64,000 nt of DNA, taken from positions 186,001 through 250,000 of the forward strand of contig NZ_JADEYS010000005.1 of the NCBI RefSeq assembly GCF_015209595.1, in the 5' to 3' direction. Every line of letters starts with the position of its first letter. The stretch's first letter is position 1. The notes under the pieces are model-generated. The model had not been told where the DNA came from. It did not search any database and was given only the letters and a program-made list of their open reading frames with translations. This DNA is from Pontibacterium sinense (GTDB taxonomy: Bacteria; Pseudomonadota; Gammaproteobacteria; Pseudomonadales; Balneatricaceae). A program made the translations under genes and the position numbers. Shown piece by piece: positions 3,155-19,696 of this stretch.

Positions 3155-3166
3155 GGACTTCGGTTG

Positions 3167-3685
3167 ATGTCTGCCGCTTCGCAAAAGAGTTCGCTGATCT
3201 GGCTATGGTTGGCGGTGGTTATTGTCGTCCTGGACCTGTGGTCCAAGTTTGTGACCAATACCTCGCTGGATTACGGTGTACCGGTGGAGATTCTGCCGGT
3301 CTTTGATCTGCGTCTTTCCTACAATACGGGCGCTGCATTCAGCTTTCTGGCGGATGCCGGTGGCTTGCAGCGCTGGTTCTTTGTGGCCGTTGCCGTGGGT
3401 GTCAGCGCCATGCTGGTGGTGTGGATGAAGCGTACACCCCGCTGGCAGTGGTGGGTTGGTATTGCTCAGGCTCTGGTTCTGGGTGGGGCGTTAGGCAATC
3501 TTTACGACCGGGTGGTGCAGGGGTATGTCATCGACTTTATCTCACTGCACTACGGCGAGTACTATTTTGCCGTGTTTAATCTGGCCGATGTGGCCATCTC
3601 TGTCGGCGCGACATTATTGATCATTGATATGCTGTTTCTGGAAGGTAAGTTCCGGGACAGAAACGAAACAGAAGGTGAAGCATGA
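3167..3685 (+). CDS. lspA: Lipoprotein signal peptidase (signal peptidase II)
   Basis: Inner-membrane aspartyl protease that removes the signal peptide of diacylglyceryl-modified prolipoproteins. About 172 residues with four hydrophobic segments. The two catalytic aspartates are recognisable: Asp123 in the N-L-Y-D-R-V...Y-V-I-D-F block and Asp141 in F-N-L-A-D-V-A-I-S. I place the start at ATG 3167 rather than the adjacent in-frame TTG at 3164, because ATG is more likely and the aaggac motif lies upstream. The 3' end overlaps fkpB by 4 bases (ATGA), which indicates translational coupling. Confidence 0.98.
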   Translation: MSAASQKSSLIWLWLAVVIVVLDLWSKFVTNTSLDYGVPVEILPVFDLRLSYNTGAAFSFLADAGGLQRWFFVAVAVGVSAMLVVWMKRTPRWQWWVGIAQALVLGGALGNLYDRVVQGYVIDFISLHYGEYYFAVFNLADVAISVGATLLIIDMLFLEGKFRDRNETEGEA

Positions 3686-4122
3686 GCGAACAGATCATTG
3701 GTCCGGGTAAAACCGTGACTCTGCACTTTGCGATCAAACTGGAAGATGGTCAGGTTGTTGATTCTAACTTTGAAGGACAGCCAGCAACATTTACCGTGGG
3801 CGATGGCAACCTGCCAGAAGGGTTCGAGCAGGCTTTATTTGGTTTGGTAGAAGGGGCAAAAGATTCCCTGCAGATCTCACCGGAGCATGCCTTTGGGATG
3901 CCAAACCCAAGCAATGTCCAGCGCTTTCCGCGTACCCAGTTTGAAGATATGAAACTGGAGAAAGGTCTGGTGATCACTTTTCAGGACGCCAAGCAGGGTG
4001 AGCTGCCAGGTGTGATCGATCGTTTTGATGAGCAATCGGTGCATGTTGATTTTAACCACCCGCTGGCTGGCCGTGAGCTGAGCTTTGAGGTGGCGATCCT
4101 GTCGGTAGCTGACGCGAGCTAA
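3682..4122 (+). CDS. fkpB: FKBP-type peptidyl-prolyl cis-trans isomerase (SlpA-like)
   Basis: Small cytosolic FKBP-family prolyl isomerase of 146 residues, the SlpA/FkpB type. The N-terminal FKBP strand pattern (V-T-L-H-F-A-I-K-L-E-D-G-Q-V-V-D-S) is followed by an insert-in-flap region (about residues 60-120) ending in V-D-F-N-H-P-L-A-G-R-E-L, typical of SlyD/SlpA proteins. The long His-rich metal-binding tail of SlyD is missing. It is coupled to lspA through a 4-base overlap and is closed by a strong terminator 20 bases downstream. In many relatives ispH follows directly; here it does not. Confidence 0.96.
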   Translation: MSEQIIGPGKTVTLHFAIKLEDGQVVDSNFEGQPATFTVGDGNLPEGFEQALFGLVEGAKDSLQISPEHAFGMPNPSNVQRFPRTQFEDMKLEKGLVITFQDAKQGELPGVIDRFDEQSVHVDFNHPLAGRELSFEVAILSVADAS

Positions 4123-4378: not shown

Positions 4379-4885
4379 ATGAAGAAATTTGATGGTTTTA
4401 CGTTGATAGAGTTACTGATCGTACTGTCGATTATCGTGATTCTCTCCACAATCGTAATGCCCAATTTCGGACCGTTTGTTCAGCAGAGCCGAATGGATTC
4501 GATTCAAAACCGGTTACTCGCCAGTGTTTCACTGGCAAGAGCAGAGGCGATACGCCAGGACGTGCAAGTAACCGTGTGTGCGCGTAACAACACCGAAAAT
4601 ATGGCGAACTACACCTGTGGCAGTAACTGGGCCAACGGTTGGGCAGTTATTGCGGGTAGTTCGGCGGTGCGGGTTGAAGATGCACCTGCAAATGCCATTG
4701 CGGTCAGTGGAAGTAATATTACGTTTAAGAGCTCAGGGCTTCTCAGTAGCGGTAATGATGTCTGCTTTTCTGCCGATGATGGCAATGGAGATACTGATGT
4801 ACGGTATCTGCAGGTCAATCAGTTCGGCAGAATCCGGGCCTGGGATGGAGCGCAGAATGATGGTGTCTGTGGGTCCGATGGGTGA
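4379..4885 (+). CDS. fimU: Type IV minor pilin, FimT/FimU (GspH) family, cassette 1
   Basis: Minor pilin of 168 residues with a very short leader. The prepilin peptidase site is G6/F7 (M-K-K-F-D-G then F-T-L-I-E-L-L), and the conserved Glu5 of the mature N-terminus is present in the hydrophobic helix. The soluble part is of the GspH/FimT type: A-R-A-E-A-I-R after the helix, a Cys pair, and a C-terminal D-D-G-N-G-D-T-D-V-R-Y segment near the last strand. No good ribosome binding site precedes the ATG. It starts the first minor-pilin cassette, and the next gene begins inside its 3' end. FimU versus FimT cannot be decided by eye; the FimU name follows from its place before pilV. Confidence 0.88.
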   Translation: MKKFDGFTLIELLIVLSIIVILSTIVMPNFGPFVQQSRMDSIQNRLLASVSLARAEAIRQDVQVTVCARNNTENMANYTCGSNWANGWAVIAGSSAVRVEDAPANAIAVSGSNITFKSSGLLSSGNDVCFSADDGNGDTDVRYLQVNQFGRIRAWDGAQNDGVCGSDG

Positions 4886-5381
4886 ACGTGGTTACACCCT
4901 GATCGAAGTGTTGGTCGCATTGTTACTCACATCTCTGGGGTTGATGGGAATGGCAGGGTTGCAGGTGGTTTCCCTAAAACAGAATCAGAGCGCTTATATG
5001 CGCAGCCAGGCGACAATTCTGGCGTATGACATTATCGATAGAATGCGCGCCAACGTTGCTGCGGTCGAGAATGGTAACTATTTTCTCGCCTCTGGTACGG
5101 AAGACAGTGACTGTGAAACGACCGCGGGCTGCACTGATGCGGAGATGGCGGCGCATGATGTATTTCGTTGGCAGGCACGGTTGGCGGAAGAGCTACCTTT
5201 AGGGAGTGGTTTAGTGTGTCGTGATACTGACCCTGATGACAGTACCGATGGTGATATAACAACCCCGGCATGTGGTACCAGTACCGACACTGATCTGCCC
5301 ATTGTGGTGTATGTCTGGTGGAATGATGAACGTGCCAGCAATGCCGTTTCAACACGTTTGGCGGTCAGCGCGAGCTTATGA
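4857..5381 (+). CDS. pilV: Type IV pilus minor pilin PilV, cassette 1
   Basis: About 174 residues with prepilin leader ending in E-R-G, cleaved before Y-T-L-I-E-V-L-V-A-L-L. The open frame extends far upstream, but that part lies in the coding region of the preceding pilin, so ATG 4857 (or 4860, 4878) is the likely start, overlapping fimU by 29 bases or less. PilV-type features are the L-K-Q-N-Q-S-A-Y-x-R-S-Q segment after the helix, a Cys-containing loop, and the C-terminal V-V-Y-V-W-W-N-D strand. It initiates pilus assembly at the inner membrane with the other minor pilins. The stop overlaps the pilW start by 4 bases. Confidence 0.9.
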   Translation: MMVSVGPMGERGYTLIEVLVALLLTSLGLMGMAGLQVVSLKQNQSAYMRSQATILAYDIIDRMRANVAAVENGNYFLASGTEDSDCETTAGCTDAEMAAHDVFRWQARLAEELPLGSGLVCRDTDPDDSTDGDITTPACGTSTDTDLPIVVYVWWNDERASNAVSTRLAVSASL

Positions 5382-6487
5382 AACTGTTAGGTAGATTAAA
5401 CCGTAAGCGGCAGCAGGGGCTGTCGATGATTGAGCTGATGGTTGCCTTGCTGATCGGTACGTTGTTGACGGCGGCCGTTCTGCAGATGTTTCTTGGCAGC
5501 CGTACGACATACGCTATGCAAAGTGCACTGGCGACGATGCAGGAGAATGCCCGCTTCGCGGTTGAGTTCCTGTCGCGGGATCTGCGCAAGGCGGGGTATA
5601 CCGGGTGTTCCACGAATACAACAATTGCCAATACGCTGCGTGACAGCAGTAACAGTGACGAAATCTACGCCCAGTACGACATGTCTGCACCTGTCTCGCT
5701 TGAGGATAACTACAGCGTTGCTGCGGGTACCAGTATACCGTTACCCACATCCGCTTCACCTACCGCTGGTACCGATATTGTGAGTGTGAAGTTTGCTGAT
5801 GGTGAAGGTAGCTGCACGGTGGAAAGCCATGTAGCGGCTTCGGCTACCATTCATTGCTACGCCAATCACGATTACCAGAAAGGCCAGGTACTGTTGATCT
5901 CGGACTGTTCTCATTCAGCGATTTTCCAGCAGAGCAATACGGTCAACACGAACAGCCAGACCAAGCAGGTCAATCACAATACCGGTCAGGCAGTGCCGGG
6001 AAATTGTACGAAAGGGCTGGGATTGCCAGTGGATTGTTCGACTACCCTGGGAACTGCATACACCTTTCCCACTGGGGCTACGGTGCAACTATATAAAAAC
6101 TACACCTACTACATTGATGACAATGACTTCGGCTCGCCAGCCCTGCACCGTTCTGCCATCAGCTTAACCAGTGGTACCGCAGCACTGGCTGAGCAGGAAT
6201 TGGTTGAAGGTGTAGAAGATATGCAGATCACCTACGGCATCGATAATGATGATGATGGCGATGCAGATTATTACGTGGCGGCAGATACCAACGGCGATGG
6301 TGTTGAAGATCTGGACGTGACTGAGGTCGTTGCCATCCGTGTCAGCCTGCTGATGCGCAGTATTGAGAACAATGTGCTCTCGAGTGCGCAGACATACAGT
6401 TATAACGGGGCAACGGTTACCGCAACGGACAGACGCTTACGCAAAGTGTTTACGGCAACCATTACCCTGCGTAACCGGGTGATCTAG
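5378..6487 (+). CDS. pilW: Type IV pilus minor pilin PilW, cassette 1
   Basis: Minor pilin of 369 residues, the usual large size of PilW. Leader M-K-L-L-G-R-L-N-R-K-R-Q-Q-G is cleaved before L-S-M-I-E-L-M, with Glu5 in place. The body carries the family pattern Q-E-N-A-R-F-A-V-E-F-L-S-R-D-L-R-K-A-G-Y-x-G-C. Near residues 288-312 there is an unusually Asp-rich stretch (D-N-D-D-D-G-D-A-D, then D-T-N-G-D-G-V-E-D) that resembles calcium-binding loops. Start and stop are tightly coupled to pilV (4-base overlap) and pilX (no gap). Confidence 0.92.
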   Translation: MKLLGRLNRKRQQGLSMIELMVALLIGTLLTAAVLQMFLGSRTTYAMQSALATMQENARFAVEFLSRDLRKAGYTGCSTNTTIANTLRDSSNSDEIYAQYDMSAPVSLEDNYSVAAGTSIPLPTSASPTAGTDIVSVKFADGEGSCTVESHVAASATIHCYANHDYQKGQVLLISDCSHSAIFQQSNTVNTNSQTKQVNHNTGQAVPGNCTKGLGLPVDCSTTLGTAYTFPTGATVQLYKNYTYYIDDNDFGSPALHRSAISLTSGTAALAEQELVEGVEDMQITYGIDNDDDGDADYYVAADTNGDGVEDLDVTEVVAIRVSLLMRSIENNVLSSAQTYSYNGATVTATDRRLRKVFTATITLRNRVI

Positions 6488-7009
6488 ATGAGTGAGATAA
6501 AAAAGCAGCAAGGCGCAGTGCTGATTGTGTCGATGATTTTTCTGGTGATCATGACGCTGATAGGGATGGCAGGTCTTGAAGTGACCGGATTGGAAGAGAA
6601 GATGGCGGCGCAGTCACGCGACCGGCAGATGGCGTTTGAGGCTGCAGAAGCGGCGTTACATGACGGCGAAGCGTATTTGGAGTCAGTTGTGACCATGCCT
6701 GCGTTCAATGGTAGTAACGGTCTGTACAGCCCGAAAACCGATGGCACCAACAATTGGGATGACTGGTCTGCGTTGGGGACCAGTGTCCGGACCATGCGTT
6801 CCCAAGTAACGGATGCGGATAAAAAAGGCTTTGCGCAATTATCAGCATTTTCGACCTATATCATCGAGGAGTTAGCGGCGTCGGCACCAGACGACAGTAA
6901 GGAAGCGGGAAAAGCGATCGAAAAACGCCGTTATTACCGTATTACCGCCCGCGCAGTCGGGCTGAGTTCGTCATCCGAAGTGAAATTACAGTCAGTCTAT
7001 AAACGTTAA
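6488..7009 (+). CDS. pilX: Type IV pilus minor pilin PilX, cassette 1
   Basis: PilX-type minor pilin of 173 residues. The leader ends Q-Q-G before A-V-L-I-V-S-M-I-F-L-V, and the mature helix lacks Glu at position 5, as is common for PilX and GspK-like pilins that sit at the tip of the initiation complex. The next block, G-L-E-E-K-M-A-A-Q-S-R-D-R-Q-M-A-F-E-A-A-E-A-A-L, is the recognisable PilX N-terminal signature. The C-terminus ends with S-S-S-E-V-K-L-Q-S-V-Y-K, also seen in the second copy. The start abuts the pilW stop; pilY1 follows after 17 bases. Confidence 0.91.
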   Translation: MSEIKKQQGAVLIVSMIFLVIMTLIGMAGLEVTGLEEKMAAQSRDRQMAFEAAEAALHDGEAYLESVVTMPAFNGSNGLYSPKTDGTNNWDDWSALGTSVRTMRSQVTDADKKGFAQLSAFSTYIIEELAASAPDDSKEAGKAIEKRRYYRITARAVGLSSSSEVKLQSVYKR

Positions 7010-7026
7010 CCGCAGGAACTGAAACT

Positions 7027-10000
7027 ATGAACAGGATCTTCCGGATGCGATTGGGGTATCTGTCGCTGCCCATCGTCATGTTTCTTCCCTCGTTCTCGGC
7101 GGCTGAGCTTTCACAGACCCCGCTTTATCTGACGACATCGGTTAAACCGAACATTTTTTTTCTGGTGGATGATTCCGGCAGCATGGATTGGGAGGTGCTG
7201 AAATCAACCGATGCCAACGCCATCTCTATCTACGACAGTTACCCTAATAGCGGCAATGTTGATATTACGCCGACCCGCGAAGATCGCGATGAGATTTTGG
7301 AATCCTGCGCAGGCTATAACGTCTTGTATTACGATCCAAGCAAGACCTATATACCTTGGGAAGGGGTGGACGAAGACGGTAACGCTTATGCTGATCAGTT
7401 GATTACCGCTGCCCGTATGGATCCTTATGATGCTAACGGTTCAACCAAAGACCTTACCGACGATGAGGGATACGGTGATCCGCCAGGTTATATGATCTGG
7501 GCGGACGACGGAGACGGCGTTTTCGAATTGGATGAGTGTCCTGACCCCGGACGCTCCGGATATGACTACGTTAACCAGTTTGTGGCTACCACATCCGGTT
7601 TTGGCGTGAATACCGTCATGACCGCCGCCCAGCAAACAAATTTTGCCAATTGGTACACCTACTATCGTAAGCGTGAATATGTGATCAAGGCGGCGCTGCT
7701 GAGCATTACGAATAACTCTGAACAGCGTTTGGGATTGGCGACTTTGCATCGTAATAACAGTGTCGACTTTCCTGTCGCTGACCTGGCTACGGGTAGCAAT
7801 AAAACCGATCTGATGACCCAGATCTCAAGTATTGGATCCAGTGGGAACACGCCACTACGCTCAAAGCTTGCGCAAGTCGGTGAATACTTTAAGGGGACTA
7901 CATCAACTTCACTGTTTGGCTCAGCTCAGGCAACGCCAATTCTTTCTGAAGCGTCTGGCGGGGCCTGTCAGCAAAACTTTTCGGTAGTGATGTCGGATGG
8001 TTACTGGAACGGCAGCGCACCCAGTGTGGGTAATGCTGACCGGGGTTCGACCAGTGACGGGGATGCAAATGATTCGGAATACGATGGCGGTGTGTACCGC
8101 GATCAATATAACGGTGTATCCAATACGCTGGCTGATGTTGCGATGCATTACTACGAAACGGATCTCAGCACACTGGATAATAAAGTACCGGGCACGCCCG
8201 ATGACAGCAACACCCGGCAACACTTAGTGACCTATACCGTTGCGTTTGGTGTGAATGGCACGCTGAGCAGTAATCCGGATGCCAACGCCACCAGTTTTGA
8301 TTGGCCTACACCGGTCAGTGATCAGAGTACCACCATCGATGATATGCGCCACGCGGCGTGGAACGGACGGGGAGAATTCCTTAGTGCGGATGATCCGCAG
8401 ACATTGATTAACGCTTTCACGACCGCCATTGCCAGTATTGAGTCCCGCACCTCCAGTGCGGCAACCGTTGCGACTAACTCAACTCGGCTGGATGCGAACT
8501 CCAAAATTTATCAGGCACGATTTAACAGTGGTGAATGGAGCGGTCAGTTCCGTGCTTATGCTCTGAACTCCACCACCGGAGATGTGGGAACCTTGCAGTG
8601 GGATGCGGCAGACCTGATTCCGTCAGCCAGTGCGCGTAAAGTCTATAGCAGCCATAGCAATACGGGTTTCTCGTTTGATACCACATCATGGGATGGCGGA
8701 CTCTTTAGTACTTCGCAGATGAGCGCACTGAATGCATTAGGTGGTACCACTGATAACCGAGGACGGGATCGGGTTAATTACCTGCGCGGTGATACTGCCT
8801 ACGAAGGCACTGACTTTCGGACGCGTGCCGGACGGTTAGGCGACATTGTGCACTCGGACCCGGTATTTGCTTTCAATGAGAGTTTTGATTACTACGGTGT
8901 AGCCCCTACGGTCAGCGTTGGTGGGGTGGCGACAGATAGTTACTACGTCTACCTGACTGACGACAGCACGGATACTAATAAAGCGGCACGAGACTCGATG
9001 CTGTATGTGGGGGCCAATGATGGGATGTTGCATGCTATGCGTGCCGAAGGAGCGGTGGGGACTATTGAAACCCCCTGTAACGTTGCGACTGCGGATTGCG
9101 AAGGGGAGGAGATGTTTGCCTATGTTCCTAAGGCGCTGTATTCCAAACTGAGTAATCTGTCGGATACCAATTACAGTCATACCTATTATGTAGATGGTTC
9201 AGTCCGTATTGCTGATGCCTATTTTGATTATAACGATGATGGTGTGTCGGATACGACGCGCTGGGGGACAGTATTGGTCGGGTTGCTGGCCGGTGGTGGT
9301 CAGGGTGTTTACGCGCTGGACGTATCCGCCCCGTTTAGTTTTTCAGCCAAAGATGTGTTGTGGGATCTGGACAGTACCGATCTGGCGGAGTTGGGATACA
9401 CCTTTGGTAACGCTTCAGTGGTGAAACTACCGGATGGTACTTGGGCGGCGATCTTTGGAAACGGCTATGAGAGCGCAAACCATAAAGCCGGTCTCTATAT
9501 CGTTAATATGGAAGATCCCAGCGACGTCGTCTTTATCGACACAGAAGCAGATGGTACCGCCGGTTCGCCAAACGGCTTGTCCTCTCCACTGCCAGTGGAT
9601 ACCAATAACGACAAAATAGCCGATGCTGTATACGCGGGAGATCTCTACGGTAATCTCTGGAAGTTCGATCTGAGCAGTAGCAACCGTAATGGATGGGACG
9701 TGGCGTTTAAGCAGGGCAGTACCCCAAAACCACTGTATCGGGCGTGTACCAGCGACGACTGCAGCAGCCCGCAACCAATTACATCGCGACCGGAAGTGGC
9801 CGATCATACCCAGGGCGGGCTGATGGTGCTCTTTGGTACGGGCCGTTATATTTCAACCAGTGATCCATCAACTACTCAGATGCAGACCTTTTATGGTATT
9901 CGCGATAACGGTTCCGCCGTCACTAATCGCAGTGCATTACAGGTACAGGATATTCTCACCGAATTTTATGTGGCTGCCAGTGATACCGATTATCGGGTGA

Positions 10001-10482
10001 CCAGCAATACCCAGGTTGATTACACTGCAAATGATGGCTGGTATCTGGATATGGACTCCAGCAGTTATGTCGGAGAACGTGTGGTTGCCAACCCCATTGT
10101 GCGTGGAGGGCGTATTATCTTCACCACGTTGTCGCCGGATACTGAGCCCTGTGAATTTGGCGGCAGTAGCTGGTTAATGGAACTGGATTATGAAAATGGA
10201 TCGCGTCTTACGGTCTCTCCATTTGATGTGAACGATGATACGGTAATCAATTCATCTGATTTTGTGACCGTCACTATCTCTGAAAATGGAGGTCAGGCTT
10301 CAGAAGTCACTGTGCCTGTATCCGGACGAAAATCTACGGTGGGTATTGTAAAAACACCTGCTGTTATCTCTACCGGCACTAAAGAGCTGAAGTATTTCTC
10401 CGGCTCAAGCGGTGCGGTTGAAACCGTACGTGAATCCAGTGGAGATAAATTGGGGCGCCAGTCCTGGATTCAGTTAAACTGA
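7027..10482 (+). CDS. pilY1: PilY1 pilus-tip adhesin/assembly protein, copy 1
   Basis: Large secreted PilY1 family protein of 1151 residues with an N-terminal signal peptide ending near S-A-A-E (about residue 27). A von Willebrand A-like region follows, with an intact MIDAS start D48-x-S50-x-S52. The C-terminal half is the conserved beta-propeller region (H-S-D-P-V, Y-V-G-A-N-D-G-M-L-H, W-G-T-V-L-V-G, G-L-Y-G-N-L-type blades). An EF-hand-like calcium loop D-x-N-x-D-x-x-x-D lies at 858-866, in the position where P. aeruginosa PilY1 binds calcium to control retraction. Close to the end another Asp-rich F-D-V-N-D-D motif looks dockerin-like. RBS cagga precedes ATG 7027. It acts with the minor pilins in pilus priming and adhesion. 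Confidence 0.93.
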   Translation: MNRIFRMRLGYLSLPIVMFLPSFSAAELSQTPLYLTTSVKPNIFFLVDDSGSMDWEVLKSTDANAISIYDSYPNSGNVDITPTREDRDEILESCAGYNVLYYDPSKTYIPWEGVDEDGNAYADQLITAARMDPYDANGSTKDLTDDEGYGDPPGYMIWADDGDGVFELDECPDPGRSGYDYVNQFVATTSGFGVNTVMTAAQQTNFANWYTYYRKREYVIKAALLSITNNSEQRLGLATLHRNNSVDFPVADLATGSNKTDLMTQISSIGSSGNTPLRSKLAQVGEYFKGTTSTSLFGSAQATPILSEASGGACQQNFSVVMSDGYWNGSAPSVGNADRGSTSDGDANDSEYDGGVYRDQYNGVSNTLADVAMHYYETDLSTLDNKVPGTPDDSNTRQHLVTYTVAFGVNGTLSSNPDANATSFDWPTPVSDQSTTIDDMRHAAWNGRGEFLSADDPQTLINAFTTAIASIESRTSSAATVATNSTRLDANSKIYQARFNSGEWSGQFRAYALNSTTGDVGTLQWDAADLIPSASARKVYSSHSNTGFSFDTTSWDGGLFSTSQMSALNALGGTTDNRGRDRVNYLRGDTAYEGTDFRTRAGRLGDIVHSDPVFAFNESFDYYGVAPTVSVGGVATDSYYVYLTDDSTDTNKAARDSMLYVGANDGMLHAMRAEGAVGTIETPCNVATADCEGEEMFAYVPKALYSKLSNLSDTNYSHTYYVDGSVRIADAYFDYNDDGVSDTTRWGTVLVGLLAGGGQGVYALDVSAPFSFSAKDVLWDLDSTDLAELGYTFGNASVVKLPDGTWAAIFGNGYESANHKAGLYIVNMEDPSDVVFIDTEADGTAGSPNGLSSPLPVDTNNDKIADAVYAGDLYGNLWKFDLSSSNRNGWDVAFKQGSTPKPLYRACTSDDCSSPQPITSRPEVADHTQGGLMVLFGTGRYISTSDPSTTQMQTFYGIRDNGSAVTNRSALQVQDILTEFYVAASDTDYRVTSNTQVDYTANDGWYLDMDSSSYVGERVVANPIVRGGRIIFTTLSPDTEPCEFGGSSWLMELDYENGSRLTVSPFDVNDDTVINSSDFVTVTISENGGQASEVTVPVSGRKSTVGIVKTPAVISTGTKELKYFSGSSGAVETVRESSGDKLGRQSWIQLN

Positions 10483-10551
10483 TAGCCTTACCGCAGTAGT
10501 TGGCCGTAACAAGGATGTTGGCTTTTACCATTGTTAGAGGGATCTGTTAAG

Positions 10552-10582
10552 AAGGCCCACGGGCATGCTTGTGGGCTTTATA
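10552..10582 (+). terminator. Terminator-like hairpin after pilY1 copy 1
   Basis: gcccac at 10555-10560 pairs with gtgggc at 10571-10576 across a 10-base loop and is followed by a short T-rich run. It lies 70 bases after the pilY1 stop and would separate the two cassettes into two transcripts. The T tract is weak (ttta), so termination may be partial. Confidence 0.55.
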
Positions 10583-10680
10583 CTCATCTTTATACCAGCT
10601 CCCTTCTACGATCGTCGTGTAACACCGACTTGCGTCATCTTGTCGCGATGTTTAAGCCAGTTTAATGCTATTAACGACCT

Positions 10681-10711
10681 ATAAAACTGTATTAATATTG
10701 ATCAGTTTTAT
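10681..10711. promoter_or_regulatory. Perfect 9-bp inverted repeat upstream of cassette 2
   Basis: ATAAAACTG (10681-10689) and its exact complement CAGTTTTAT (10703-10711) are separated by 13 AT-rich bases, giving a 22-base centre-to-centre distance, two helical turns. That geometry suits a dimeric regulator bound on one DNA face. No such repeat was seen before cassette 1. The regulator is unknown. Confidence 0.4.
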
Positions 10712-10857
10712 CGCGTTGCCGCGGCATATTGACTGAATGGCTGTTTCATTAATTGTTAATACACATAGATTCTTCCGATGCCGATAATGAGTGGTGATTA
10801 GCATGCGTGGCATTACAAATGAATCAGAAGAGCCTGATAGAGCGATTATCCCTGAAT

Positions 10858-11373
10858 ATGGAAAGCAGAGTGGTTTTTAAAAAGGTTAAAGACAGGGGAT
10901 TTACGCTGGTTGAATTAATGATCACGTTGGCGATCCTCGCAATATTGATGACTGTTGCGGTGCCGAATTTTGGTTTGTTTGTACAGACGGGGCGAATGGA
11001 CACGATTCAAAACCGGTTGGTGGCCAGCTTGGCACAAGCGAGGTCTGAAGCGATTCGTCGGGGTGAAGATGTCACGGTGGCCTTTACCGTTTCCGGTGGG
11101 CGCGTCACCCAGTGGCTGTCGACAGATGAAGGTGGTGATTCGATTCGTCAGGAATCCGGGTCTGATGCCAACGTATCACTGACTCTGTCTGCCGCTCAGA
11201 ATACCGTAGTCTTTACGAGAGATGGTGAACTAAGTTCGGCGAGTGACGTCTGTTTTGTCGTGGATGATGGAGATAGCGCAACAGATGTGCGATATGTGCA
11301 GCTGAATGCGGTTGGCCGTGCCCGGGCCTGGGATGGAGAAACCGATGATACGGTATGTGGTAGTGGAAGCTGA
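10858..11373 (+). CDS. Type IV minor pilin, FimT/FimU (GspH) family, cassette 2
   Basis: Second copy of the FimU-like pilin, about 171 residues from ATG 10858. The leader M-E-S-R-V-V-F-K-K-V-K-D-R-G is cut before F-T-L-V-E-L-M, with Glu5 present. It is clearly paralogous to the cassette 1 protein: M-D-x-I-Q-N-R-L follows the helix in both, and both end in D-V-R-Y-V/L-Q-x-N plus R-A-W-D-G. The second protein lacks the internal Cys pair of the first in its middle part. Upstream in-frame starts (GTG 10807, ATG 10819) would give an unusually long leader, so I prefer 10858, with no strong RBS for any of them. Confidence 0.86.
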   Translation: MESRVVFKKVKDRGFTLVELMITLAILAILMTVAVPNFGLFVQTGRMDTIQNRLVASLAQARSEAIRRGEDVTVAFTVSGGRVTQWLSTDEGGDSIRQESGSDANVSLTLSAAQNTVVFTRDGELSSASDVCFVVDDGDSATDVRYVQLNAVGRARAWDGETDDTVCGSGS

Positions 11374-11911
11374 ACGCGGTTACACCCTGATTGAGGTGCT
11401 GGTGGCTCTGTTAGTTATCTCTCTGGGCCTGCTGGGGATGGCGAGCCTTCAGGTGACAGGGCTTAAACAGAACCAGAATGCTTATATACGTAGTCAAGTT
11501 TTGGTTGCTACTCAAGACATTGTCGGGCGGATGCGGGCAAATAAAACGGGTGTGTTAAACGGCGATTATTTCGAAGCGGCGTCCGATGAACAGATCAAAA
11601 ATATTGATACGTCCTGTGAAAGCACTGCCTGCACCAGTGCAGAGCTGGCGATCTACGACCTGAATAATTGGAAATACCATTTGCAGCAAGAGGCCGGTGG
11701 TGGCGGTTGTATGACGCGTGCTATAGAGACAAGTAATAGTTATCAAGAAGAAGCGGTTAGCGATCTGACTAAGCTTTGCACCGACAGTAATGACCAAAGT
11801 AAGCCGGTGGTTATGTATGTTTGGTGGAACGACTCTCGGTATAAAAATAAGGAAGAAGCGAAGAGCAGTGACAAGGATATTCAAGTCATCGCTTTGAGTG
11901 TGGAAATATGA
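11345..11911 (+). CDS. pilV: Type IV pilus minor pilin PilV, cassette 2
   Basis: Second PilV, about 188 residues from ATG 11345 (ATG 11333 is an alternative). The leader ends E-A-E-R-G before Y-T-L-I-E-V-L-V-A-L-L, the same boundary as copy 1. The L-K-Q-N-Q-N-A-Y-I-R-S-Q block and the C-terminal V-V-M-Y-V-W-W-N-D strand are retained, while the region between is diverged and richer in Cys (C-E-S-T-A-C). The gene begins inside the preceding pilin and its stop overlaps pilW by 4 bases, so the overlapping architecture of cassette 1 is kept. Confidence 0.88.
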   Translation: MIRYVVVEAERGYTLIEVLVALLVISLGLLGMASLQVTGLKQNQNAYIRSQVLVATQDIVGRMRANKTGVLNGDYFEAASDEQIKNIDTSCESTACTSAELAIYDLNNWKYHLQQEAGGGGCMTRAIETSNSYQEEAVSDLTKLCTDSNDQSKPVVMYVWWNDSRYKNKEEAKSSDKDIQVIALSVEI

Positions 11912-13002
11912 TGAAGCGACATGGAATTCATATGAAATATCAGAAAGGTCTGTCTCTGATAGAGCTAATGATCGCTCTGGTGATTGGTTTGTTGCTGGTG
12001 GCTGCTACCGTCCAGATGTTTGTGGGCAGTCGTGTCACATATAGCATGCAAAACGAGCTGGCCAAAGTTCAGGAAAATGCCCGTTTTGCGATGAATTTCA
12101 TTAGCCGGGACTTGCGTATGGCGGGATATATCGGCTGTACCAAACACCTTACTATTGCGAATACATTGCGTGATACTGCAAATGGGGATGCTGCCCATGG
12201 TGAATATGATCTATCTGTACCTATAGCAATAGAAGATAACTATGTGTCTGCGTCAGGTACAAGTATCGATCTTCCATCAAACGCATCTCCGAGTGATGGT
12301 ACTGATATCGTCAGTATTAAGTTTTCCGACACCGAGGGGGCTTGTTCGGTTACGGATCATAATACGAGCTCCGCTGTGATGACATGCACCGGACATGAGT
12401 TTGTGACGGGACAGGTTTTATTGGTTTCTGACTGTAAGAAGGCCGCGATTGTTCAGCATACAGGTGGAAACCCCAATAAAATTGTTCACAACACAGGAAA
12501 CTCTGTTACACCGGGAAATTGTACCAAGGGGCTTGGTCTGCCAATAGTTTGCAGCACGCTGGGAACAGCAGAAGACTTCACCGGTGGGACAGTCATGTTG
12601 CTGCGTAATTACACCTATTATATCGATCAGAACGCCTTTGGAGTGCCTGCGTTGTATCGGACTAGCATTGGGGTGACAGACAAAAATGCTACGTTGAATC
12701 AGCAAGAACTGGTAGAGGGCGTCGAGAATATGCAGGTTTTGCTTGGTTTGGATACCGATGATGACGGTACCGCAGACTGCTTTAAGAGTTCTGTGAGTCG
12801 GTGTGTAAGCAGTGGTTCTGTTACTGTGACGGAAGATAACATTGTCGCGATAAGGGTCAGTTTAGTAATACGTAGTATCGCAAATAATGTTACGTCTACT
12901 CCCCAAAGTTATGTATTAAACGGTGTGACAATAACCCCTACGGATAACTATCTGCGCAAGGTTTTCACCTCAACAGTTACGCTTCGCAACAGGACGCTTT
13001 AA
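11908..13002 (+). CDS. pilW: Type IV pilus minor pilin PilW, cassette 2
   Basis: Second PilW, 364 residues. Cleavage is expected after M-K-Y-Q-K-G when ATG 11932 is used, or after a 14-residue leader from ATG 11908; L-S-L-I-E-L-M follows. It aligns along its whole length with copy 1: Q-E-N-A-R-F-A-M-N-F-I-S-R-D-L-R-M-A-G-Y-I-G-C, then G-N-C-T-K-G-L-G-L-P, Y-T-Y-Y-I-D and E-L-V-E-G-V-E-N-M-Q. The double Asp-rich loop of copy 1 is shortened here to D-T-D-D-D-G-T-A-D and replaced by a Cys pair. It is coupled to pilV by a 4-base overlap. Confidence 0.9.
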   Translation: MMKRHGIHMKYQKGLSLIELMIALVIGLLLVAATVQMFVGSRVTYSMQNELAKVQENARFAMNFISRDLRMAGYIGCTKHLTIANTLRDTANGDAAHGEYDLSVPIAIEDNYVSASGTSIDLPSNASPSDGTDIVSIKFSDTEGACSVTDHNTSSAVMTCTGHEFVTGQVLLVSDCKKAAIVQHTGGNPNKIVHNTGNSVTPGNCTKGLGLPIVCSTLGTAEDFTGGTVMLLRNYTYYIDQNAFGVPALYRTSIGVTDKNATLNQQELVEGVENMQVLLGLDTDDDGTADCFKSSVSRCVSSGSVTVTEDNIVAIRVSLVIRSIANNVTSTPQSYVLNGVTITPTDNYLRKVFTSTVTLRNRTL

Positions 13003-13004
13003 GG

Positions 13005-13658
13005 ATGAAACAGCGGCTACAGAGAGGCTCGGTACTGATTGTATCTATGGTGCTCTTACTCGTTATGACTTTGATTGGTATGGCAGGCATAGAGGTTACC
13101 AGTCTCGAAGAAAAGATGGTGTTTAATCTGCGTGATCGACAGGTTGCGTTTGAAGCAGCTGAAGCTGCATTGTTGAGCGCAGAGGAATATTTGCAGCTGG
13201 ATACAGGAGACACCTCAATTATTCAGTTTGAAGGTGGTAGTGGTGGTCTTTACTCCGTCGAGCAGTCTGATTCTTGCAATGATTCACCGTCGTCAGATTC
13301 AGACGAAGATGATAGTCCTGGAAACAGCGGAAACAGCGGAAACAGCGGAAACAGCGGAAACAGCAACAACGAGGACGATAGTGAAAGCAGTGAAACCGTT
13401 GACAGCATAGCGCTAGCTAAAAAAGATTGGGACGTGGGTTGCCGTATAGAGTTCAGCAGTCTTCAGCCAGATGCATTTACGAAGCAAGCGCCCAACTTTA
13501 TTGTGGAAGAGCTTTTGGTCGATGAACTGTCGCCTTCGCTGAAGGTCGGTGAAGTCAGTGATCGTTATATCTACTACCGGGTAACCACGAGTGCACAAGG
13601 GCTGACCGGTTCCTCGGAAGTGCGTGTTCAAACTGTGTATAAGGTTTATCGAAAATAA
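13005..13658 (+). CDS. pilX: Type IV pilus minor pilin PilX, cassette 2, with repeat insert
   Basis: Second PilX, 217 residues against 173 for copy 1. The N-terminus is conserved (R-G then S-V-L-I-V-S-M-V-L-L-L, again without Glu5; S-L-E-E-K-M-V-F-N-L-R-D-R-Q-V-A-F-E-A-A-E-A-A-L), as is the end (G-S-S-E-V-R-V-Q-T-V-Y-K). The extra length is an acidic, low-complexity insert around residues 86-128, rich in Asp, Ser, Asn and Gly. It contains G-N-S repeated five times, encoded by a 9-bp tandem repeat. Such a loop would be exposed at the pilus tip. Confidence 0.89.
   Translation: MKQRLQRGSVLIVSMVLLLVMTLIGMAGIEVTSLEEKMVFNLRDRQVAFEAAEAALLSAEEYLQLDTGDTSIIQFEGGSGGLYSVEQSDSCNDSPSSDSDEDDSPGNSGNSGNSGNSGNSNNEDDSESSETVDSIALAKKDWDVGCRIEFSSLQPDAFTKQAPNFIVEELLVDELSPSLKVGEVSDRYIYYRVTTSAQGLTGSSEVRVQTVYKVYRK
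13320..13364 (+). repeat. Five perfect 9-bp tandem repeats inside pilX copy 2
   Basis: The unit ggaaacagc occurs five times without change and encodes Gly-Asn-Ser each time, followed by a diverged aacaac. The unit is a multiple of three, so gain or loss of copies would change loop length without breaking the frame. Copy 1 of pilX has nothing comparable. Confidence 0.97.
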
Positions 13659-13685
13659 CCGTCGGATAAGGGAAAAGGTCACGGG

Positions 13686-16600
13686 ATGATGGGGAAAATA
13701 GAGTGGAAGAACATGCGTCGAATGTTTCAGGACGGCTTCCCGGTTGCCTTTAATTTATTAATAGCTGTATCTACCTTGTTGGTCTTGAGTCAGCCTTTAC
13801 AGGCTGATTCAACGTTGCATCTAAAGGATGTACCACAGGCAAATATCCTGTTTTTGATTGATGATGCGTTGAGCTTGGATTTTGAGAAACTCATGGATAG
13901 GGAGGAGGAGGAACGTTTAGGGATTGATGACTATCGCTTTTACTTTAAGTATAAAAGTCTCAATAAATTTAATGATATAGCGCCACATTGTACCCGCTAC
14001 AATAAGCTGGCGTATGACCCGTCTAAAACGTATCGCCCTTGGTGGGGAACAGACTCAGAAGGTAATATATTTCAAGATCAGACCAATATCAGTTCTGTAC
14101 CCTTCGATCCTTATTTACCGAAAGATGTGGGAATAGCAGATGCCGATGAGATTGCTAGAAACCAAGACAATCACACAGATCTGTCTCAGGCATTTTATCT
14201 TGTTTGGACGGATGGCAATGATAATGGTGAGCATGATGAAGGGGAATGTTCGGTTCCGACTCAATTACATTCCGACTGCAAAGAAGGGGAAGGTAACGAG
14301 AAGCTTGCCAGTAGCATATGCGTCTCTGTCGCTGATATGTCATCCGCAGAGCAGATTAATTTTGCCAATTGGTACGCGTATCACCGTAAGCGTGAATATG
14401 TCATTAAATACGCCTTAGCCGAAGTCATCAATAAATCTCAAGCACGTATCGGAATCGGATTTTCCAGTACCGAGAAATTCCATAATACGGTTAGCCGCGG
14501 AGCTGAAATTAAAGATGTAGATGATATTTCTTTTCCGATTGACCCGCAGGCTAAGGCAAACAAAGAGGAATTGTTAACCCGGGTTTTTGCGTTTGATACG
14601 AAAGCAGTAGGAAAAGATATTTCTCAAGTCCGCCGTACCTATGAAGCTGCTGGTAACTACTTTGAGCGTGAAGAGGTGTATGAATCGGGTGATACCTCAG
14701 GTGTGAGGGAGCTGTTTGGATATGATAGTGATGAGGCCGAGCCAGAATCCCCTATCGTAATCAGTGATGCACGAGGCGTTTGTCAGAATAACGCTACTGT
14801 TGTTATTGCAGGTCGGTATGAAAATGGTTCAGACAGTAGTAACTATTCGCGCCGAATCCTTCATAAACATATAGATGGTGACAATAGTTCTGACTACGAC
14901 GGCGAGTGGGTTGCTGGGATCTCGCCAAAAGATTCTTATGCCGATGATTATTTCGATACTCTAGCCGATGCGGCGATGTTCTTTTATGAACGTGATCTCT
15001 ACCCGGATGAAGATAACCCTAATATTATCCAGCGTATGTCTACCCATATGGTGGCGCTTGGATTGGAGGGGACATTAAGTGCAGGACCAAGTTCAGCGAC
15101 GGAGCCCTTTACTTGGACTGATCGTGTGAATAGCCATAAAGAAACTATCGACGATATGCGTCATGCTGCCTGGAATGGCCGGGGGCGGTTTCATGATCCA
15201 AGTGATGGTGAAGAACTAGTCGACGCGCTTAAGGATATTCTATTCAACGTCGAGCTCGCCTCTGAAAATGAGGCTAATGCCGTGGGCTCGAACATGCTGT
15301 CAGTGACTTCGTTGCGCGCCAGCAGTGCAACCACTGCTTTTGTGACTAGGTTTGAGCCGAGTATCTGGACGGGGCATTTGCTGGCATTTCCGATCAATCA
15401 AACTACGTTGGCTTTGGAAGATCAGGCGTGGAATGCTGCTGATTTGATCCCGACCCATACACGCAGGAACATATTTAGTCACAATGGTGATGCCGGTTTC
15501 GAGTTTACGACCGCTGCACTGACTAATAGCAATGGCTTTTCCGATACGCAGCTGGCTAATCTGAATGCACTGAATGATGTGACAGATAGCCTGGCGCAGA
15601 AGCGTGTTGCTTATCTGCGGGGGGATCAAACAGATGAAGGGAACCCCTTCCGTTCTCGTAGTGGACTGTTGGGCGATATCGTGAACTCCGATGCCTTTTA
15701 TACCTATGATGAAAACCACCGCTATCATGGTTTAGAAACGGCAGAAAGTGATACGACGGGCAGTTACTACTATTACCTCAAAAATAAAAAGCGTTCGAAA
15801 CGCCCTATGGTCTATGTGGGCGCGAATGATGGAATGTTGCATGGTTTTTACGCGACAGCGGATAGTGATCTGGCTGATGACGTTGATGCTGCGACCTGTA
15901 AAGAAACCAGTGCTAAATGTGCCGGTGAGGAGGCCTTTGCCTACATTCCCAAGAGTGTTTACGGAAAACTGAGTAACCTGACCGATCCGGACTATTCACA
16001 CAATTATTTTGTTGATGGACCGGCGATTGTGGCGGATGCCTATATCAATTTCAGTGATGAGGGCAGTAGTGCGAAACGTTGGGGCTCGGTGCTGCTTGGC
16101 TCACTGGGTGTCGGCGGCGCTGGTGTGTTTGCACTGGATGTCTCAAAGCCAGACAGCTTTGGCAGTAACGATGTGCTTTGGGACTTAGATGCCACTGATC
16201 TGCCGGACTTAGGTTCCTTATCCGGCCGTATCTCTGTGGTGAAACTACAGAACGATTCTTGGGCCGCGGTGTTTGGCAATGGTTACGACAGCGCCAATCA
16301 TAAAGCAGGCCTTTACATCGTACCGCTGGAAAGCCCGAAAGACGCAATCTTTATTAATACTGAGTCCGACGGGACGTCAGACAGTCCGAATGGTTTGTCG
16401 GCGGCTTTGGCAACGGATACCGACGGTGATAAAAGAGCGGATCGCATCTATGCCGGTGATCTGCAGGGGAATATGTGGGTGTTTGATCTGAGTGCAGATA
16501 ATAGCGACGATTGGAAAGTGGCATATAAACAGGGTTCATCCCCCGAACCACTATTCCGCTCCTGCACTAACGACGATTGTAGCAATCCCCAGCCGATTAC

Positions 16601-17291
16601 CATGCGCCCTGAAGTGGTCAAATATAGTGGTGCCGGTGGGGGGCAATTGGTCTTGTTTGGTACCGGTAGTTATCGCACGGCGGATGATGTAGATAGCACC
16701 CAGGTACAGAGCTTTTATGGTGTGCGTGATGACACCGACAATGCAGTTCCTGGCCGATCTAGTTTGCAGCAGCAGGAAATCGTAAAAGAGTTCACTGTGC
16801 AAACCACCGGGGAACATCGTGTTACCTCTAAAAATAGTGTGGATTACAGCAGTTCGAGAGGTTGGTATATCGATTTCAATTCATCTCGTTTCATCGGTGA
16901 ACGTATGATCACCGACCCTGTGGTAAGGCGCGATACAGTGCGGTTCTTTACCTTCACTGTAGAAGGTGGCGTTTGCAGCCGTAATGGCGGCGATAGCTGG
17001 TTTATGGAACTGGACTTCAACACTGGTGCCCGGGCAGATTCATCTACCTTTGATGTGAATGGCGATGGGCGGGTAGATGCGGATGATCTGGAAACGCTGG
17101 AGACTAGCGCAGGCACTGAGCAAGTCCCTGTGTCCGGGTTTAAAGCGGAAGGTTTGGTGAAAACCCCCGATTTTGCCTCCAATGGTGAGACTACCCGTCT
17201 GCGTGGTGATTCATCCGGTGGTGGGCTGGTTGAGCGTGCGCGTCAGGAGGGGCCGCCACTGGGGCGTCAGTCCTGGATTCAGGTTCGATAA
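13686..17291 (+). CDS. pilY1: PilY1 pilus-tip protein, copy 2, degenerate MIDAS
   Basis: Second PilY1, 1201 residues, with an N-terminal signal anchor (about residues 20-40, ending L-Q-A-D). The whole C-terminal propeller parallels copy 1: Y-V-G-A-N-D-G-M-L-H-G-F, C-A-G-E-E-A-F-A-Y-I-P-K, F-G-N-G-Y-D-S-A-N-H-K-A-G-L-Y-I-V and Q-S-W-I-Q at the end. The calcium loop is intact as D-x-D-x-D-x-x-x-D at 911-919. The N-terminal half is much more diverged, and the MIDAS start reads D59-x-A61-x-S63, so the first serine ligand is replaced by alanine. A dockerin-like D-V-N-G-D-G-R-V-D motif lies near the C-terminus. It is preceded by aaaagg and followed by pilE after 27 bases. Confidence 0.91.
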   Translation: MMGKIEWKNMRRMFQDGFPVAFNLLIAVSTLLVLSQPLQADSTLHLKDVPQANILFLIDDALSLDFEKLMDREEEERLGIDDYRFYFKYKSLNKFNDIAPHCTRYNKLAYDPSKTYRPWWGTDSEGNIFQDQTNISSVPFDPYLPKDVGIADADEIARNQDNHTDLSQAFYLVWTDGNDNGEHDEGECSVPTQLHSDCKEGEGNEKLASSICVSVADMSSAEQINFANWYAYHRKREYVIKYALAEVINKSQARIGIGFSSTEKFHNTVSRGAEIKDVDDISFPIDPQAKANKEELLTRVFAFDTKAVGKDISQVRRTYEAAGNYFEREEVYESGDTSGVRELFGYDSDEAEPESPIVISDARGVCQNNATVVIAGRYENGSDSSNYSRRILHKHIDGDNSSDYDGEWVAGISPKDSYADDYFDTLADAAMFFYERDLYPDEDNPNIIQRMSTHMVALGLEGTLSAGPSSATEPFTWTDRVNSHKETIDDMRHAAWNGRGRFHDPSDGEELVDALKDILFNVELASENEANAVGSNMLSVTSLRASSATTAFVTRFEPSIWTGHLLAFPINQTTLALEDQAWNAADLIPTHTRRNIFSHNGDAGFEFTTAALTNSNGFSDTQLANLNALNDVTDSLAQKRVAYLRGDQTDEGNPFRSRSGLLGDIVNSDAFYTYDENHRYHGLETAESDTTGSYYYYLKNKKRSKRPMVYVGANDGMLHGFYATADSDLADDVDAATCKETSAKCAGEEAFAYIPKSVYGKLSNLTDPDYSHNYFVDGPAIVADAYINFSDEGSSAKRWGSVLLGSLGVGGAGVFALDVSKPDSFGSNDVLWDLDATDLPDLGSLSGRISVVKLQNDSWAAVFGNGYDSANHKAGLYIVPLESPKDAIFINTESDGTSDSPNGLSAALATDTDGDKRADRIYAGDLQGNMWVFDLSADNSDDWKVAYKQGSSPEPLFRSCTNDDCSNPQPITMRPEVVKYSGAGGGQLVLFGTGSYRTADDVDSTQVQSFYGVRDDTDNAVPGRSSLQQQEIVKEFTVQTTGEHRVTSKNSVDYSSSRGWYIDFNSSRFIGERMITDPVVRRDTVRFFTFTVEGGVCSRNGGDSWFMELDFNTGARADSSTFDVNGDGRVDADDLETLETSAGTEQVPVSGFKAEGLVKTPDFASNGETTRLRGDSSGGGLVERARQEGPPLGRQSWIQVR

Positions 17292-17318
17292 TTTAGATAA
17301 TCAGAGAAGGCGAACAAC

Positions 17319-17732
17319 GTGAAGCAGAAAGGTTTCAGTCTGATTGAGCTGATGATCACAGTGGCGATTATCGGCATTATTGCCGCGATTGCGTATCCGT
17401 CTTACACCGACTATGTACAGCAGGCCCGTCGAGCCGATGGGCAGGGCGCTATGTTGCAAGCGGCGCAGTGGATGGAGCGACAGTTTACAGTAAATGGAAA
17501 TTACAATTCGGACTTCAATTCCGTTGATGGTGACGGTAATGCAATAAAGCCTTATGACACAGACTTTTATAGCATCGTGGTTTCAGGCTCTACAACAAGT
17601 ACTTACACGATCCAAGGGACCCCAACAGGCGCTCAGGCCAGTGATGATTGCAAGATATTGTCTGTGACCAGCGTGGGTGTAAAATCCGCCAAAGAATCTG
17701 ATGGTACTGCGATAGACGGTTGTTGGGACTGA
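17319..17732 (+). CDS. pilE: Type IV minor pilin PilE
   Basis: PilE-type minor pilin of 137 residues starting at GTG 17319, with agagaagg as RBS. The leader M-K-Q-K-G is cut before [14 protein letters not shown], with Glu5 present. The following [30 protein letters not shown] block is characteristic of PilE. Two C-terminal cysteines (D-D-C and D-G-C-W-D) form the expected D-region disulphide. It closes the second cassette; only one pilE is present for two upstream sets. Confidence 0.92.
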
Positions 17733-17912: not shown

Positions 17913-18512
17913 ATGTACAAGGATGTGTGTCGTCGCCCGGCAGGGCACTTTGTGGCTGAGGCAAGGGGTTTTACCCTGATTGAGCTGTTGGTCACCCTCT
18001 CTGTTCTTTCTATTCTGATGTTTGTTGCTGTTCCCAGTATGAGCGATGTAGTCGCGGACTCTCGTGTCGCTGAAACTCGTCATCGTGTGCGTGCTGCGCT
18101 GGCGTTGGCACGTTCAGAAGCGATTCGACGGGGTATTACGGTGACGATGTGTGCGTCAGTCGATAGCCAAAGTTGTGAAGGGAGGGCCAAGCAGGGTAAG
18201 TATCTCTGGTCGCAACTGCTGTTATTCAAAGACAATAATGCCGATCGGATGTTCTTCACTGCCGATCAGGATGAGTTAATTCGTGTGGTTGATCTGAGCG
18301 GTGGAGGTCAGGTGTTATGGAACCGAGGGCAGTCCACGATCTATGCGAGTGATGGCAGTTTGTCGGGCAGTGTGAATGGCTCGTTTTACATCTTCGATGA
18401 AGCGGAGATGAGCAAAGGGGTGAGGATGTTGCTGCAGTTGACCGGTCGGCTACGGCAAGCGGATTTCTCTAATCAAGACATTGCTTATGTAGACCAGTAT
18501 CTGGGTCATTAA
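17913..18512 (+). CDS. fimT: Type IV pilin-like protein, FimT/GspH family (third copy)
   Basis: Protein of 199 residues with RBS agggag before ATG 17913. The leader is longer than in the other pilins (19 residues, ending E-A-R-G) and is cut before F-T-L-I-E-L-L-V-T-L-S-V-L. The GspH/FimT signature follows: V-P-S-M-S-D-V-V-A-D-S-R-V-A, then A-L-A-L-A-R-S-E-A-I-R-R-G-I-T-V-T-M-C. A Cys pair (C-A-S...C-E-G) resembles FimT of other species. It stands 180 bases after pilE with its own RBS, next to thiO, which matches the place of fimT in Pseudomonas and suggests this one is the true FimT. Confidence 0.85.
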   Translation: MYKDVCRRPAGHFVAEARGFTLIELLVTLSVLSILMFVAVPSMSDVVADSRVAETRHRVRAALALARSEAIRRGITVTMCASVDSQSCEGRAKQGKYLWSQLLLFKDNNADRMFFTADQDELIRVVDLSGGGQVLWNRGQSTIYASDGSLSGSVNGSFYIFDEAEMSKGVRMLLQLTGRLRQADFSNQDIAYVDQYLGH

Positions 18513-18595: not shown

Positions 18596-19696
18596 ATGTC
18601 TGATTATCTGATCGTTGGTGGTGGTGTTATCGGGATGATGATGGCGCGTGAGCTGTCTACAGCCGGTGCCGATGTTACCTTGGTTGATCGTCGCGGCTGT
18701 GCGGAAGAATCCTCCTGGGCGGGGGGCGGTATTGTTTCTCCGCTGTACCCGTGGCGCTACAAAGATCCAATTACTGCTCTGGCGACCTGGTCCCAAAGCA
18801 GTTATGTCCTGCTTGCACAGGAGCTGCTGGAAGAGACCGGTTACGATCCGGAGCTGCGCCAAAAAGGTATGTTTATGGTGTCGGTGGAAGACGCGGACGA
18901 CGCGCGTCGCTGGGCAGCGAAGCATCACCGTCCTCTGACAACTGTAGATGCAGATTTCCTCTACCAGAAAGAACCGCACCTGAAAGAAAACCTTGGAGAA
19001 GCGTTATGGATGCCGGAAGTGGCCAGTATCCGCAACCCTCGTTTGGGTCGCTCGTTGCGTCAGAGTCTGGTTGGGCGTGATAACGTGACGGTGCTTGAGC
19101 ATCAACCGCTGGAAAGCCTGATCATTGAAGGTGAGCAGGTAAAAGGGATCAAGACCCATAAAGGTGAGATCCGTGCAGACAAGACGATTATCGCAGCGGG
19201 TTCATGGAGTGGTGAGCTGGTGAAACCACTGGGGTTGAATGTGCCCGTTGAACCGGTACGTGGTCAGATGATGATCTTTAAAGCACCGCAAGGGTTGGTG
19301 AATCGTGTGGTGTTGATGGACGGACGTTATGTGATTCCACGTAATGACGGTCGTGTGTTGATCGGCAGTACTATGGAACATACCGGCTTTGTAAAAGAGA
19401 CTACCGAAGACGCACGTGCCTCACTCTATGAGACGGCCATTAATATAGTGCCGGCGCTGGCGGACCATCCGATTGAGCACCATTGGGCGGGCTTACGTCC
19501 GGGATCACCGGAAGGTGTACCGTTTATTGGTGCGGTGCCGGGATACGAAAATCTGTATATGAATGCTGGGCATTTCCGTAATGGATTGGTGCTGGCGCCG
19601 GCATCAACCCGCTTGCTGGCCGATCAGTTACTGGGACGTACACCGATTATCGATCCGGCTGCGTATGCGCTGAGTGGACGGGTCACATCTGGCTGA
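18596..19696 (+). CDS. thiO: Glycine oxidase / FAD-dependent amine oxidoreductase ThiO
   Basis: DAO-family flavoenzyme of 366 residues that would oxidise glycine to iminoacetate for the thiazole part of thiamine. The N-terminal dinucleotide-binding motif is G-G-G-V-I-G-M-M-M-A-R-E-L (residues 7-19), with the acidic residue ending strand 2 in V-D-R. The S-S-W-A-G-G-G-I-V-S-P-L motif and the C-terminal G-L-R-P-G-S-P-E-G-V-P-F-I-G and G-H-F-R-N-G-L-V-L-A-P-A-S motifs are those of ThiO. RBS ctggagg lies at the right distance before ATG 18596. No other thiamine gene is nearby. A broad-specificity D-amino acid oxidase role is possible. Confidence 0.87.
   Translation: MSDYLIVGGGVIGMMMARELSTAGADVTLVDRRGCAEESSWAGGGIVSPLYPWRYKDPITALATWSQSSYVLLAQELLEETGYDPELRQKGMFMVSVEDADDARRWAAKHHRPLTTVDADFLYQKEPHLKENLGEALWMPEVASIRNPRLGRSLRQSLVGRDNVTVLEHQPLESLIIEGEQVKGIKTHKGEIRADKTIIAAGSWSGELVKPLGLNVPVEPVRGQMMIFKAPQGLVNRVVLMDGRYVIPRNDGRVLIGSTMEHTGFVKETTEDARASLYETAINIVPALADHPIEHHWAGLRPGSPEGVPFIGAVPGYENLYMNAGHFRNGLVLAPASTRLLADQLLGRTPIIDPAAYALSGRVTSG

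Follow-up and report, generated by a model that had tools for sequence, protein, structure and literature searches.

The type IVa pilus (T4aP) tip locus of Pontibacterium sinense, carried on the 64,000-nucleotide stretch of DNA that was analyzed (here called the window), contains two complete minor-pilin/PilY1 gene sets, and these probably act as two alternative tip sets for one pilus machine, with set A conserved and set B lying in a slot whose contents are exchanged. We hypothesize that the locus encodes two alternative tip (priming) complexes, each set building one complex that would end at the pilus tip, as described for Myxococcus xanthus in the available part of PMC7541494; by analogy with that precedent, alternative tips are plausible. 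A single pilus would carry A or B, depending on expression, and the two tips would be expected to bind different ligands; the evidence speaks neither for nor against the composite tip that the original prediction also suggested. The slot, which would run from the spacer after pilY1-A through pilE, would supply a tip of changing specificity, because homologous recombination through the conserved flanks would replace or reshuffle it from one species to the next.

Two tandem gene sets and a probable single pilus machine

The original prediction of two complete fimU-pilV-pilW-pilX-pilY1 sets in tandem was borne out, as all frames are open, the gene order is identical, and Pfam or NCBIfam matches support the assignments. 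All genes are on the forward strand unless noted. The left flank consists of ileS-lspA-fkpB (329..4122), identified by Pfam; the same genes adjoin the locus in relatives and are presumably also the neighbors of the Pseudomonas aeruginosa operon. Set A comprises fimU (4379..4885; Pfam GspH and N_methyl), pilV (4878..5381, from an ATG at 4878 within a longer open reading frame), pilW (5378..6487; Pfam PilW), pilX (6488..7009; Pfam PilX_N), and pilY1-A (7027..10482; 1151 aa). Set B repeats this order with fimU (10858..11373, from an ATG at 10858 in a frame that opens with GTG at 10807; Pfam GspH and N_methyl), pilV (11345..11911, from an ATG at 11345 in a frame open from 11306; NCBIfam PilV above cutoff), pilW (11908..13002; Pfam PilW), pilX (13005..13658; Pfam PilX_N), and pilY1-B (13686..17291; 1201 aa). 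The doubled cassette has, as predicted, a single pilE (17319..17732, with a GTG start), which lies 3′ of pilY1-B. It is followed by a gene for a fimT-like pilin (17913..18512; GspH and N_methyl) and by the right flank, recognized by Pfam and by comparison with a sister genome, which consists of a thiO-like FAD oxidoreductase gene (18596..19696) and bamD (YfiO; 19786..20730, reverse strand).

In each set, an operon-like row of genes encodes four class III prepilins, followed by a PilY1 that has a C-terminal propeller. PilV-A was assigned solely by its similarity to PilV-B (50% identity). The propeller was found by Pfam in both PilY1 proteins, which match the solved PilY1 C-terminal domain (3hx6) with E values of 4.7e-68 (PilY1-A) and 3.6e-64 (PilY1-B) and which both retain the calcium-type propeller loop. 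The gene overlaps had been described as the same in the two sets, and this holds for pilV/pilW (4 bp in both) but not for fimU/pilV (8 bp in set A versus about 29 bp in set B) or for pilW/pilX (abutting in set A, a 2-bp gap in set B); the start codons of these genes are our choice. PilX-B contains a low-complexity run of repeated GNS and acidic residues that PilX-A does not have.

Whole-genome profile searches found two PilY1 genes, both at this locus (PF05567), together with one PilB and one PilQ above cutoff and one PF00114 pilin. Above the cutoffs, a single core machine and a single major pilin go with more than one tip set, as in Myxococcus. Weaker PilB- and PilQ-like matches, below cutoff and from other systems, occur elsewhere in the genome, so one set may serve a second system. 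Two of them, one PilQ-like and one PilB-like, lie near each other on the contig of the window but not within it (C44:9404-14874) and may represent another pilus or secretion system.

PilY1-A and PilY1-B are identical in 501 of 1230 alignment columns (41%). The earlier observation that the paralogy is strongest in the PilY1 propeller was confirmed, with 60-64% identity there versus 29% in the first 100 residues, the lowest value. The minor pilins of the two sets are 47-58% identical, protein by protein, and GC3 is 45-46% in pilW, pilX, and pilY1 of set B and 52-59% in set A, a difference that favors the reading of set B as an exchanged slot. Phylogenies were built from 27 FimU, 25 PilV, 29 PilW, 21 PilX, and 33 PilY1 C-terminal sequences (loci retrieved twice were left out, namely L071-L074, L076, and L077, and, in these trees and the metal-site count given below, L147-L176). 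The A and B copies of the genus formed one clade in five of six trees (support, 95/97 to 100/100), which is consistent with set B having arisen by local duplication of a set A-like cassette; the same clade leaves an origin of set B in another genus without support as far as the minor pilins and the C-terminal part of PilY1 are concerned. In the sixth tree, of the PilY1 N-terminal part, the placement of PilY1-B is not resolved. Local duplication, one of the two origins that the original prediction proposed to distinguish by trees, is therefore upheld where the trees resolve the copies, in the minor pilins and the C-terminal portion of PilY1. The N-terminal part of PilY1-B has a long branch and an odd composition and may be of outside or chimeric origin; its best identity (42%) is to the lone PilY1 of another family genome, G003, in which a pilE-like gene comes after set A and is accompanied by this PilY1 without minor pilins. 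The second PilY1 of Pontibacterium granulatum (G002) is 68% identical to PilY1-A and 44% identical to PilY1-B.

Divergence of set B between conserved flanks

The nearest relative is G004, a single Oceanospirillaceae metagenome-assembled genome in 500 contigs (86% complete, 6% contamination), and the species comparison uses one genome per species. The set A proteins FimU, PilV, PilW, PilX, and PilY1 share 100, 100, 98, 98, and 97% of their residues with their G004 counterparts (dS, 0.06-0.35), and the flanking proteins FkpB, ThiO, BamD, and RluD are 98% identical (dS of thiO, 0.26). In contrast, FimU, PilV, PilW, and PilX of set B (PilX over the part present) are 53, 62, 53, and 69% identical, with dS from 1.69 to beyond estimate in the genes present in G004; PilE is 60% identical over the 57 aa present, and FimT is 65% identical. 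With set A conserved and set B divergent between the same conserved flanks, A looks like a constant cassette and B like a recombining slot. The earlier view of two sets stands in that both are real, but their histories differ: set A appears to have been inherited normally, and set B, pilE, and the FimT head are far more divergent between the sister species than the genes next to them. Set B combines deep divergence between close genomes with conserved flanks, as does the exchangeable cassette of Acinetobacter; set A, in the same comparison with G004, is not divergent, unlike such a cassette.

In 100-bp steps, DNA identity to G004 is mostly ≥90% up to about 10700 and falls to 45-81% beyond that point, until the G004 contig ends near 13290. 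Positions from about 13290 to 17565 have no counterpart in the G004 contigs, which leaves the slot PilY1 of that genome and the greater part of its pilE unseen. Identity is 60-67% in the end of pilE and rises to 93-96% at 17800-17999; it drops again to 55-75% in the fimT head (18000-18499) before returning to mostly ≥90% from 18500. The divergent fimT head is separated from the set B block by a conserved spacer. In a control region of 20 kb elsewhere in the window, one part matches G004 at 93% over 6.2 kb and further parts have no close G004 match, so variable or missing stretches are not peculiar to the tip locus. A segment of about 1.75 kb (32143-33896) is absent from G004, in which contig C222 matches both sides with few bases between them.

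Given the 500 contigs and 6% contamination of G004, its bin could mix two organisms and the contrast could be false. We consider this very improbable, since the divergent set B and a 99% identical pilY1-A end lie on one G004 contig at the left junction, and the divergent fimT head and a 98% identical thiO lie on another at the right. P. granulatum also gives the same contrast in milder form (set A, 77-84% identical; set B, 47-58%), although there the synonymous sites of both sets are close to saturation or past it.

It is also possible that the pair is an old tandem duplication that descended vertically, set B merely evolving faster under relaxed or positive selection and without exchange between species. 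The single genus clade of A and B copies and the long branch and odd composition of the PilY1-B N-terminal part would fit this scenario, as would the loss of metal-site residues described below, which is compatible with relaxed constraint. However, a speed-up at the protein level would not saturate the synonymous sites of set B while those of set A and thiO remain at the low values given above. Within fimT, dS against G004 is 0.10 in codons 1 to 40 and 1.52 thereafter, a jump that selection on the protein alone does not explain; in fimU-B the shift is gradual, with dS of 0.57 in codons 11 to 45 and saturation later.

The gene trees of set B conflict as well. For set A, P. sinense and G004 are nearest kin in all six trees. 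In set B, G004 joins P. granulatum for PilW (support, 100/100) and FimU (97/96), and the topology uniting P. sinense with G004 is rejected for both (p-AU, 0.0003 and 0.021), whereas P. sinense joins G004 for PilV (99/95) and PilX (100/96), and the topology uniting P. granulatum with G004 is rejected (p-AU, 0.033 and 0.014). Three of these four rejections fall at p values of 0.01-0.04, with topologies that were not fixed beforehand. We read the conflict as mosaicism; disagreement with the flank or species tree, as expected of an exchangeable cassette of the Acinetobacter kind, is seen here in PilW and FimU, and PilV and PilX agree with the pairing of P. sinense and G004. With the synonymous divergence and the fimT jump, these trees leave vertical descent improbable. 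Under the preferred reading of an exchanged slot beside a fixed set, the FimT head would have been exchanged separately from the slot; the direction and donor of exchange are matters that we infer from these comparisons.

Another explanation is that the two sets are fixed and divide labor, for example, between twitching and DNA uptake, and are not interchangeable tips. The available part of a study of Xylella fastidiosa reports two paralogous sets that, for the most part, affect movement and competence in opposite ways (PMC9956873). A fimT-like gene adjoins set B and pilE at the P. sinense locus. Division of labor by itself would leave the exchange of set B between species unexplained, and the present evidence has no bearing on DNA uptake; we regard it as an unlikely explanation, albeit one that is compatible with alternative tips and could coexist with them.

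The proposed PilY1-B tip and candidate control elements

The VWA domain of PilY1 and its metal ion-dependent adhesion site (MIDAS) are treated in the available part of PMC9210963. We scored five residues, DxSxS plus a Thr and an Asp, all of which are present in PilY1-A. PilY1-B has lost three of the five: Ala stands in place of the first Ser, Ser in place of the Thr, and Gly in place of the last Asp. For comparison, we retained the 101 of 109 BLAST-matched PilY1 candidates whose alignments spanned 270 or more query positions and combined them with PilY1-A and PilY1-B, giving 98 distinct VWA segments, these two included. All five residues are present in 82 of the 98; the Thr is kept in 96 and the last Asp in 97, PilY1-B being the sole exception. 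The 16 segments that are noncanonical in at least one of the five columns include PilY1-B, and several of them seem to have misaligned or missing starts. The motif is kept in the lone PilY1 of G003 and in the second PilY1 of P. granulatum.

AlphaFold models have pLDDT values of 88 (PilY1-A) and 79 (PilY1-B) and a similar order of strands and helices. Fold matches were modest for PilY1-A, with eight at E ≤ 0.001, several of which we take to be VWA adhesins; for PilY1-B no match reached E ≤ 0.001, and the best, to BatB, was weak (E = 4e-3). Set A, with its intact MIDAS, would provide the fixed tip. PilY1-B lacks the MIDAS but may retain a VWA-like fold, and it would be expected to bind without that metal site or to act mainly in assembly.

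The lost MIDAS residues might instead mark set B as a decaying or silent paralogue, and set B has no close orthologue for a selection test. This we consider quite improbable, since set B consists of six consecutive open genes, its PilY1 retains the propeller and the calcium-type loop, a conserved 20-bp element lies 5′ of the set, and the second set is open in P. granulatum also.

With one mismatch allowed, that 20-bp element (10689..10708) is present as a single copy in each of the three genomes of the genus that have a second minor-pilin set, always 5′ of the second fimU, and is absent from the other two; in P. granulatum the spacer around it is largely dissimilar. It was considered as a site for site-specific recombination, and this was rejected; because it is single copy and does not flank both ends, we read it as regulatory. 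A hairpin 3′ of pilY1-A (10552..10579; −18 kcal/mol, z = −3.5) is a possible terminator, which the consensus terminator scan does not list. Together, the hairpin and the private 20-bp element suggest separate transcription of the sets. The promoter scan was uninformative (9 sites found versus 19.7 expected from shuffles).

Because set A would keep the pilus working, set B could vary. We offer as a tentative and, on balance, doubtful extension that this is a two-tip strategy of the family, in which the constant cassette secures piliation, its neighbor is exchanged between species, and the VWA domain of PilY1-B works without a MIDAS. Were this so, surface, host, or phage specificity could change without risk to piliation.

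Tandem sets in the family and in known systems

PilY1 matches of any kind occur in 70 of 116 family genomes. By hand count, 15 of the 116, P. sinense included, have PilY1 genes in tandem, defined as at least two matches that share a contig and a strand and lie no more than 12 kb apart; G060, at 13 kb, would bring the count to 16. Two minor-pilin sets were seen gene by gene in eleven other genomes: G002, G009, G018 (cut by the locus edge), G030 (Amphritea opalescens), G057, G061, G063, G067, G068, G069, and G070. The 15 also include G071, which has broken frames, and G003, which has no second minor-pilin set. Close relatives carrying the same pair with a described function had been named as the finding that would count against the original prediction; relatives do carry tandems, but of a different pair, and no described function for them was found in the literature searched. 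G053, a more distant relative within the order, has eight matches to the PilY1 propeller family.

In the genus g15, seven of the nine tandem genomes have a layout comparable to the constant-plus-variable arrangement. Pairwise identity among these seven is 44-79% for the upstream PilY1 (mean, 57%) and 18-77% for the downstream one (mean, 32%), whose length ranges from 1099 to 1707 aa; the upstream value is the higher in 18 of 21 pairs, all but those formed by G057, G063, and G069. The other two genomes, G061 and G070, were left out of this comparison. Their upstream PilY1 proteins (1478 and 1529 aa, versus about 920-950 aa) do not belong to the shared upstream type, so the layout is not general in g15. 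Marker genes of the same flanks adjoin the g15 tandem loci, in which a separate pilE-like gene tends to accompany each set, in contrast to the single pilE at the P. sinense locus.

Literature searches covering few subscription journals found no paper on Pontibacterium type IV pili or Amphritea PilY1, and in what they listed, mainly titles and the starts of abstracts, we did not recognize a tandem of a constant and an exchanged set. Such a tandem would make a fixed and a free tip comparable within one cell and would let one ask whether a backup tip permits its neighbor to vary. A VWA PilY1 without a MIDAS would likewise be a natural test of whether the metal site is needed in tip adhesion or surface sensing.

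The known systems, each described here from the available parts of the sources, share some of these features. The gene order is identical to that of the fimU-pilVWXY1E operon of P. aeruginosa, which has one set only, versus two here, and in which the minor pilin alleles of PA14 and PAO1 show 61-75% similarity (PMC5979040). X. fastidiosa also has two paralogous minor-pilin/PilY1 sets, with knockout phenotypes that differ, but mostly in two genome regions and not in tandem (PMC9956873). M. xanthus likewise combines several complete FimU-PilV-PilW-PilX-PilY1 sets, in clusters 1 to 3, with one major pilin and machine; their expression differs and their tips are proposed to be alternative, but the clusters are separate, not tandem, and PilY1.1 and PilY1.2 have DUF4114 (PMC7541494, PMC13190605, PMC9109919). 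In Acinetobacter baumannii, the T4aP tip cassette around comC, a pilY1 relative, is replaced, and there, as here, a block of minor pilins and tip adhesin is replaced by recombination with the flanking genes remaining outside it (PMC10374093). Variation in that cassette peaks in the N-terminal VWA part. Unlike in P. sinense, the A. baumannii cassette is single, with no constant set described beside it, and its variants retain the MIDAS, which PilY1-B does not (PMC10374093). Tip-cassette replacement (Acinetobacter) and multiple tip sets (Myxococcus) are thus already known, but apart; judged from the literature searched, what appears new is the tandem of a constant and a variable set, together with the tip that lacks a MIDAS.
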